The notes beneath the pieces were generated by a model. That model was not told the DNA's origin, searched no databases, and saw nothing but the letters and a program-made list of their open reading frames with translations. A DNA stretch of 35,155 bases, taken from the NCBI GenBank assembly GCA_030828105.1, contig JAURDE010000006.1, positions 1 to 35,155 of the forward strand, written 5' to 3'. The stretch is from Bdellovibrionota bacterium (GTDB lineage: Bacteria; Bdellovibrionota; Bacteriovoracia; Bacteriovoracales; Bacteriovoracaceae). The first letter of the stretch is position 1; every line of letters starts with the position of its first letter. The position numbers and the translations under genes are program-made. This document shows, piece after piece, positions 12,011-21,986 of the stretch.

Positions 12011-12091
12011 TTTCCCTCAAATTCATTTGATTTAATGACACCGCTTTTATATCATGCCCAGCTTAAAACACAAAAGCTAAAGGTCTATTTG

Positions 12092-13054
12092 GTGAAAAGT
12101 GATTATACTTATACTCAAAATGAAAATCCACACATAGCCCGAGGTAGAGAGATATTAAAAAAATACCCTGAGGTAAGAAAATTTATAGGACATTATCCTC
12201 TATCAGGCCTTTATATTACCCTCCTCGTATTATTTCAGTTTACCTTAGGTTATTTTCTAAAGGATCAATCTATTTGGTTATCAATAATAATGGCCTACCT
12301 ATTAGGTGCCATTATCTCTCACTCCTTATTTGTTATGATCCACGAAGCTTGTCATAATCTTATTTTTAAAAAAACATGGGCGAATAATCTCATGGGACTC
12401 CTTTGTAATATTGGTCAAGGCTTTCCAAGTTACTTTGGGTTTAAAACTTTTCACCTTATGCACCACACTAATTTAAATGAATACGATTATGACGCTGATC
12501 TGGCCTTTCACTGGGAAGCAAAGTTAGTAAAAAACAAGTCGTGGAGAAAGGTTTTTTGGCTTATTGCCTTTTGCTTTATTGAGGCGATTAGGCCTGCCAA
12601 ACTTAAAGATAGTAAGGTTATTGATGGCCCCAGTATATTTAATATTGTGTTAATTGTTTGCACCAATGTTCTGATCTACAATTTTCTAGGGCCAAATGCC
12701 TTTTATTATGTTTTCTTCTCAACATTTTTTGGCGTCGGACTACATCCAGTCGGTGGTAGATGGATTCAAGAGCATTACACATTCAAAAAAGGTCAAGAGA
12801 CATATTCTTATTATGGATTAGGAAATAAGGTGGCCTTTAATATCGGCTACCATAACGAACATCATGATATTATGACTATTCCATGGGTTTATTTACCTAA
12901 ACTTAAGGCCTTGGCGCCGGAATACTACAATCATTTGATGGCCCATAGGTCTTGGACAAAAGTCTTAATGGCCTTTCTTTTCAATAAAAACTTTGACTTA
13001 TACAGCAGGATTGTAAGAAATAGGCCATCTGGACCGATTAAGGCCACGCCATAG
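12092..13054 (+). CDS. DES1-like sphingolipid (dihydroceramide) delta-4 desaturase
   Basis: A membrane di-iron desaturase closely resembling animal and fungal dihydroceramide delta-4 desaturase (DEGS1/DES1). It has all three histidine boxes, H84-x3-H88 (HEACH), H121-x2-HH (HLMHH) and H254-x2-HH (HNEHH), and DES1-specific stretches: REILKKYPEV near 19-28, GLHPVGG near 216-222, EHYTFKKGQETYSYYG near 227-242 and LAPEYYNHL near 274-282. Four or so membrane segments lie between. A GTG start at 12092 with AAAGG 8 nt upstream gives 320 aa and aligns with the DES1 N terminus (about 323 aa); the same AAAGGTCTATTTG context precedes the GTG start at 34829. In-frame ATGs at 12035 and 12002 are alternatives; the second would run into the divergent gene. 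It would introduce the 4,5-trans double bond into a ceramide-type lipid. Confidence 0.88.
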   Translation: MKSDYTYTQNENPHIARGREILKKYPEVRKFIGHYPLSGLYITLLVLFQFTLGYFLKDQSIWLSIIMAYLLGAIISHSLFVMIHEACHNLIFKKTWANNLMGLLCNIGQGFPSYFGFKTFHLMHHTNLNEYDYDADLAFHWEAKLVKNKSWRKVFWLIAFCFIEAIRPAKLKDSKVIDGPSIFNIVLIVCTNVLIYNFLGPNAFYYVFFSTFFGVGLHPVGGRWIQEHYTFKKGQETYSYYGLGNKVAFNIGYHNEHHDIMTIPWVYLPKLKALAPEYYNHLMAHRSWTKVLMAFLFNKNFDLYSRIVRNRPSGPIKATP

Positions 13055-20840: not shown

Positions 20841-21986
20841 ATGAAAAGTTTCTCATCTCCAGTCGAAAACTTTAAAGAGTCCATTTTCGCAACGATGAGT
20901 AAGCTCGCACTCGATCATAAGGCGATTAACCTCTCCCAAGGCTTTCCTGATTTTGAGGCACCCTCTTGGATTATTGATAAAGCGTTTTTGGCCATGAAAG
21001 AGAATCACAATCAATATGCCCCTCTGGCCGGAATTCTTTCATTACGGCAAGAGCTCTCAAAACATTTTAAAAATTCTTATGATATTGAATATGACCCTCA
21101 TCAAGAAATCACAATCACTAACGGAGCAACCGAAGGAATTTTTTCTTCTCTTATGGCACTTCTTAACCCTGGTGATGAAGTGATTATTTTTGAGCCTTTT
21201 TACGACTCCTATCTCGCCACAATTGAGCTTTGCCGGGCAAAACCAGTACCCGTAACATTACAATCTCCTCACTTTAATTTTGATCCAAGTGAGCTTGAAT
21301 CTGCCTTTTCAAACAAGACAAAATGTATCATTTTAAACTCTCCTCATAACCCTTCAGGAAAGGTTTTTAACCTCGATGAGCTGCAAATGATAGCCAAGCT
21401 CGCCATTAAAAATGACTGCTATGTTATATCAGACGAAGTCTATGAGTTTCTCACTTTTGATTCAAAAAAACATATCCCTATTGCCAGTCTTGAAGGAATG
21501 AAAGAAAGAACAATTACAATATCAAGTGTTGGAAAAACATTTTCTTTAACCGGGTGGAAGGTTGGATGGTGTGCAAGCTCAGAAAAAATTACTCACCATA
21601 TACGAATGGTACACCAGTATAATACTTTTAGTGTTTCACACCCTTTCCAACATGCCGCTACATATGCTCTACAAAACATACATAAATACTTACCTGACTT
21701 TATGGATTCTTATAAGACAAAAAGGGACATACTTTTAAATGGTTTAAAAGAAGCAGGACTAAAACCGATAACACCTGAAGGAACTTTCTTTATTCTTTGT
21801 GAACTAGATGAAGAAGATGATATCGCCTATTGCCAAAACTTAATAAAAACAAAAAGAGTGGCCACAATACCAACCTCTATTTTTCATCTTAAAAGTCATC
21901 AAGGGAAAAAACTCATCCGCTTTTGCTTTGCGAAGAAAGAGAAGACTCTAGTTGAAGCCATAGATCTCCTAAATGCCCACTGTTGA
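20841..21986 (+). CDS. PLP aminotransferase, methionine/kynurenine type (YbdL-like)
   Basis: A 381-aa fold-type I aminotransferase. Marks: NLSQGFPDFEAP (30-41), YAPLAGILSLR (59-69), NGATEGIF (94-101), NSPHNPSGKV (166-175), SDEVYEFL (197-204), PLP lysine K232 in SSVGKTFSLTGWKVGW, and the arginine in LIRFCFAKKE near 355. The GFPDF start and SVGKTFS motif place it with YbdL / kynurenine-oxoglutarate aminotransferases, which act on methionine, glutamine, phenylalanine or kynurenine. ATG 20841 directly follows the nitroreductase stop. The last 74 nt overlap the convergent CBS gene; the overlapped part encodes the usual C terminus of this family. Confidence 0.92.
   Translation: MKSFSSPVENFKESIFATMSKLALDHKAINLSQGFPDFEAPSWIIDKAFLAMKENHNQYAPLAGILSLRQELSKHFKNSYDIEYDPHQEITITNGATEGIFSSLMALLNPGDEVIIFEPFYDSYLATIELCRAKPVPVTLQSPHFNFDPSELESAFSNKTKCIILNSPHNPSGKVFNLDELQMIAKLAIKNDCYVISDEVYEFLTFDSKKHIPIASLEGMKERTITISSVGKTFSLTGWKVGWCASSEKITHHIRMVHQYNTFSVSHPFQHAATYALQNIHKYLPDFMDSYKTKRDILLNGLKEAGLKPITPEGTFFILCELDEEDDIAYCQNLIKTKRVATIPTSIFHLKSHQGKKLIRFCFAKKEKTLVEAIDLLNAHC

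Follow-up and report, generated by a model that had tools for sequence, protein, structure and literature searches.

Sphingosine-type and phytosphingosine-type long-chain bases are usually treated as eukaryotic, and in animals the protein DEGS1 acts as a desaturase. A second animal enzyme of the same family, DEGS2, performs both desaturation and hydroxylation at C4 of dihydroceramide (PMC10140171). Among bacteria, the ceramide pathway enzymes of Caulobacter are Spt, bCerS, and CerR, the last of which acts in the periplasm (PMC11087976). Our search, which covered the open-access literature, returned no paper on a bacterial DES and no assayed bacterial homologue. DES is an established family with models in Pfam; what is new is the member described here, which lies within a sizeable bacterial branch. 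It is encoded in the window, by which we mean the whole analyzed stretch of 35,155 nucleotides from a Bdellovibrionota bacterium.

The DES gene of the window and its family

The predicted DES-family ceramide C4-desaturase/hydroxylase gene occupies positions 12092–13054 of the plus strand and encodes 320 aa from a GTG start codon, at whose aligned position most homologues have ATG. A probable ribosome-binding site, AAGG (12080–12083, plus strand), weak and picked by eye, lies ~8 nt upstream of the GTG. The product consists of an N-terminal Lipid_DES domain (PF08557; residues 2–36, 12095–12199, plus strand), a domain found at the N terminus of sphingolipid delta-4 desaturases, and an FA_desaturase domain (PF00487; 12275–12949, plus strand). 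The former scores 43.7 bits against a Pfam cut-off of 23 and the latter 91.1 bits against 29.7, and both are present in 42/42 bacterial homologues of our alignment A1. The three histidine boxes are HEACH (residues 84–88, 12341–12355), HLMHH (residues 121–125, 12452–12466), and HNEHH (residues 254–258, 12851–12865), all on the plus strand. Of the eight box histidines, seven (H84 and H88; H121 and H124; H254, H257, and H258) do not vary among the 42 homologues, and H125 is at least 90% conserved. The features that an earlier note had read from this gene are all borne out by the translation, namely the length of 320 aa, the three boxes, and the stretches REILKKYPEV, GLHPVGG, EHYTFKKGQETYSYYG, and EYYNHL.

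The AlphaFold2 model of the window protein has a mean pLDDT of 93.5, and its top PDB matches of known function are, with modest scores, AlkB and stearoyl-CoA desaturase, which are membrane di-iron enzymes. A PDB sequence search with the window protein and the A1 profile gave zero matches up to E = 1, so there is no solved DES relative. The scan of viral contigs gave pattern matches, yet no relative, and the plasmid search found none either; the BFVD fold search returned generic giant-virus acyl desaturases alone.

The window protein resembles animal DEGS1 in its two domains, in the position of the histidine boxes at the same alignment places, and in its length (~320 aa), with ~38% identity over 313 residues to a provisional copy of the human sequence, with which it also shares the stretches SYYG and HNEHHD. 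It differs in that the MGS/MGN N-terminal start of the human proteins, the known myristoylation site, is missing, and in that it falls in a separate bacterial clade and has a predicted function. Closer relatives with the same two domains are the Lipid_DES proteins of Bacteriovorax sp. BSW11_IV (63% identity) and a Halobacteriovoraceae MAG (54%). Those of Mucilaginibacter spp. also carry both domains (~35%) and differ in lying across the deepest well-supported branch from the window protein, alongside human DEGS.

Since the general FA_desaturase domain and the membrane di-iron fold belong to the window protein as well, and since its gene stands outside any sphingolipid operon in its own genome, flanked by a divergent alcohol dehydrogenase-like (ADH-like) gene, an arginine decarboxylase, and an amino-acid permease, the protein might be a desaturase of the ordinary acyl-lipid (fatty acid) type with no more than a resemblance to DES. 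We consider this improbable in view of the scores. Lipid_DES lies above its cut-off, whereas the best NCBIfam acyl-desaturase model reaches 24.5 bits against a curated cut-off of 500. In BLAST with the window protein, DES homologues align with at least 239 bits and other PF00487 proteins of the family with at most 48. In the tree with outgroup, the DES rows group together against the three outgroup rows with a support of 94; the outgroup branches are very long, and because they reach 8–10 changes per column the root of this tree was not used. DES also co-occurs with serine palmitoyltransferase (SPT) across Bdellovibrionota, as detailed below. Judged from its sequence, the window protein is a true member of the DES (Lipid_DES) family rather than a chance resemblance. 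The window genome contains four FA_desaturase matches and a single Lipid_DES match, that of the window protein; the other three, on contigs C182, C42, and C206, comprise by eye one AlkB-like and two delta-9-type proteins.

Ceramide pathway genes elsewhere in the genome

The earlier note had reported neither an SPT nor a ceramide synthase in the vicinity. This holds within the window, but not genome-wide, where an SPT gene and a ceramide synthase (CerS) candidate stand together on another contig, C101, separate from that of the DES gene. The SPT gene (C101:9384–10586; L019/L061:9384–10586) was named from its best PDB and NCBIfam matches. In the PDB it matches Sphingobacterium multivorum SPT most closely, with 386 bits, the next enzyme scoring 283, and the best NCBIfam match is the SPT model SerpalmtaseCFB with 499 bits; because this falls under the curated cut-off of 640, the name is strong but formally uncertified. 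With the SPT found, a source of the sphingoid base is present. The two observations that the earlier note held to count against its reading, a place among ordinary acyl-lipid desaturases and an absence of sphingoid bases and of SPT, fail as far as testable here, because the window protein belongs to the DES family and the genome encodes SPT and a ceramide-type locus. Three other candidates for SPT were rejected. L022 is BioF, lying in a biotin operon with bioB, bioD, and bioA as neighbors; L017 passes glycine C-acetyltransferase models; and the aminotransferase of the window (20841–21986) was excluded from the alpha-oxoamine synthases on its sequence, which is that of a general class I aminotransferase.

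The genes adjoining the SPT encode a GNAT-family protein, an NAD-epimerase-type protein, a PAP2 phosphatase, and an FA_hydroxylase that matches yeast Scs7, a ceramide fatty-acid hydroxylase, with 84 bits. By protein type and adjacency, the GNAT protein is a candidate CerS and the epimerase-type protein a candidate CerR. The locus as a whole (L061:5152–10586) thus reads as SPT, GNAT-type CerS candidate, CerR-like reductase, PAP2 phosphatase, and Scs7-like hydroxylase. A 222-aa protein encoded there has no Pfam match and is kept beside the locus in a relative (L101). The adjacent SPT, N-acyltransferase, and reductase match the Spt/bCerS/CerR set of Caulobacter by protein type; the difference lies in the SPT, which is classed, with SerpalmtaseCFB as its best NCBIfam model, in the Bacteroidetes/delta-proteobacterial subgroup.

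The earlier note had further linked the gene to sphingophosphonolipids as in Bacteriovorax stolpii, a link that finds no backing in the gene content. We found no PEP mutase for a phosphonate head group in the window genome, which is an estimated 93% complete. Only two PEP_mutase-family matches occur, and both were rejected as PEP mutase. Judged from neighbors and sequence, the first is PrpB, beside citrate synthase-like and PrpD-like genes, and the second is isocitrate lyase. The absence of PEP mutase at this completeness is suggestive evidence against such lipids.

Co-occurrence with SPT and the predicted reaction at C4

Lipid_DES was detected in 53/291 Bdellovibrionota genomes (18% of the sample) and SPT, called at E ≤ 1e-100, in 136/291. 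SPT is present in 50 of the 53 DES-positive genomes versus 86 of the 238 DES-negative ones (Fisher 5.6e-16, a p value inflated by shared ancestry), and the three DES-positive genomes without SPT (G172, G207, and G217) are all 77–87% complete. Counted by hand per genus, SPT accompanies DES in 32/32 cases versus 50/130 genera without DES (p 1e-11, which shared ancestry likewise inflates). The dependence is one-sided, since DES is missing from many SPT genomes, a pattern that a modifying enzyme should give. In Bacteroidota, Lipid_DES occurs in 40/396 genomes (10% of the sample), and SPT in 34/40 DES-positive versus 252/356 DES-negative genomes; this association (p 0.06, not significant) is too weak and was discounted as evidence.

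DES is occasionally linked to sphingolipid genes. One locus (L100) contains SPT, CerS, an Scs7-like FA_hydroxylase, and DES in a row, in another (L118) DES adjoins an Scs7-like FA_hydroxylase gene, and in a third (L101) it lies ~5 kb from a complete sphingolipid locus, while in the majority of the examined loci it is unlinked. In a further relative (L102:4966–8119), a CerS paralogue, a CDP-alcohol phosphotransferase, and DES stand in a row, which represents a candidate ceramide head-group cassette.

The reading we favor, and consider likely, is that the window gene encodes a bacterial DES enzyme oxidizing C4 of dihydroceramide that the cell makes itself. What we observe is that the protein belongs to the DES family and has intact catalytic motifs, that the pathway genes are present, that DES co-occurs with SPT, and that it is occasionally linked to sphingolipid genes; dihydroceramide as substrate, C4 as position, and the outcome of the reaction are predicted. 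That the window DES works in an endogenous bacterial ceramide pathway is very probable. In the proposed pathway, SPT would condense serine with acyl-CoA, the GNAT-type CerS would add the second acyl chain, and the CerR-like reductase would yield dihydroceramide, the acyl chain of which the Scs7-like enzyme may 2-hydroxylate. The histidine boxes of DES would provide the ligands of an inner-membrane di-iron centre. Should the reductase be periplasmic, like CerR of Caulobacter (PMC11087976), and should the active site of DES lie on the cytoplasmic side, DES may need to use 3-keto-ceramide, or a lipid that has been flipped back, as its substrate.

The sequence alone is compatible with a product bearing either a 4,5-double bond or a 4-hydroxyl, and we know of no residue that discriminates the two outcomes. 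The long-chain bases of B. stolpii are reportedly mainly iso-C17 phytosphingosine, not sphingosine, and occur with 2-hydroxy acyl chains, a combination that fits a gene set of DES and an Scs7-like hydroxylase. Provided that B. stolpii has a DES of its own, these bases would favor a hydroxylase role in the window lineage. It is a realistic possibility, as a sub-case of C4 oxidation, that the window DES is mainly a dihydroceramide C4-hydroxylase giving ceramide with 4-hydroxysphinganine (phytosphingosine) and scarcely any sphingosine, if at all, as DEGS2 of the same family carries out both reactions (PMC10140171). On the other side, two further FA_hydroxylase-family genes of the window genome, on C108 and C173, could be Sur2-like C4-hydroxylases. 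With DES tied to SPT in predatory-type bacteria, the formation of delta-4 or C4-hydroxy ceramide by a bacterial DES becomes directly testable.

The bacterial branch of DES and its relation to eukaryotic enzymes

To place the window protein, we used a main tree of 69 rows, which is unrooted, has no outgroup, and represents eukaryotes by provisional copies of two human sequences. The window protein nests first among 13 Bdellovibrionota members (100/99) and then in a Bdellovibrionota clade of 30 (99/96). On one side of a branch supported at 99/97 lie 42 sequences from Bdellovibrionota and 15 from Bacteroidota; the smaller set on the other side comprises the two human DEGS, Mucilaginibacter, three further Bacteroidota sequences, and three from Bdellovibrionota. 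The window DES belongs to an old, widespread bacterial branch of the family. The label "eukaryote-like" given in the earlier note was accordingly too strong, as DES homologues occur in the sampled Bdellovibrionota and Bacteroidota at the rates given above (18% and 10%).

The same note had also offered transfer from a eukaryote as one origin of the gene, and the window protein is indeed clearly similar to human DEGS1. Nevertheless, a recent horizontal transfer of eukaryotic DES1 into the window lineage is hardly credible. Besides nesting in the two Bdellovibrionota clades, the window protein resists being grouped with the human sequences. The penalty for constraining human DEGS (the two provisional sequences) with the window clade is 79.6 log units (p-AU 1.6e-9); with the window protein alone it is 109.5 log units (p-AU 1.6e-4). 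Because these constraint trees fail, a recent transfer from animals to the window lineage is rejected. Additionally, the base composition of the DES gene resembles that of its neighbors.

Two proteins, L027 (from a genome of the same family as the window genome) and L125 (from Bacteroidota), are closer to the provisional human DEGS1 sequence (48–50% identity) than the window protein is. A doubtful but testable idea is that ceramide C4 oxidation was a bacterial invention, and that eukaryotic DES1/DES2 derive from one branch (the clade of L027, L125–L128, and Mucilaginibacter) of an ancestral Bdellovibrionota/Bacteroidota family. If this were true, eukaryotes would have acquired their sphingosine chemistry; the existence of a bacterial DES family makes the source of eukaryotic DES open to such testing.

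Two further observations concern the diversity of the family. The L027 gene (631–1623; G262:C75) encodes a second, more eukaryote-like type of DES, with 49.5% identity to the provisional human DEGS1 sequence; its genome is of the same family as the window genome, and its neighboring genes are bacterial. One Bdellovibrionota genome, G031, carries two DES genes (L105:3993–4952 and L106:5784–6812), which come from opposite sides of the deepest supported branch.
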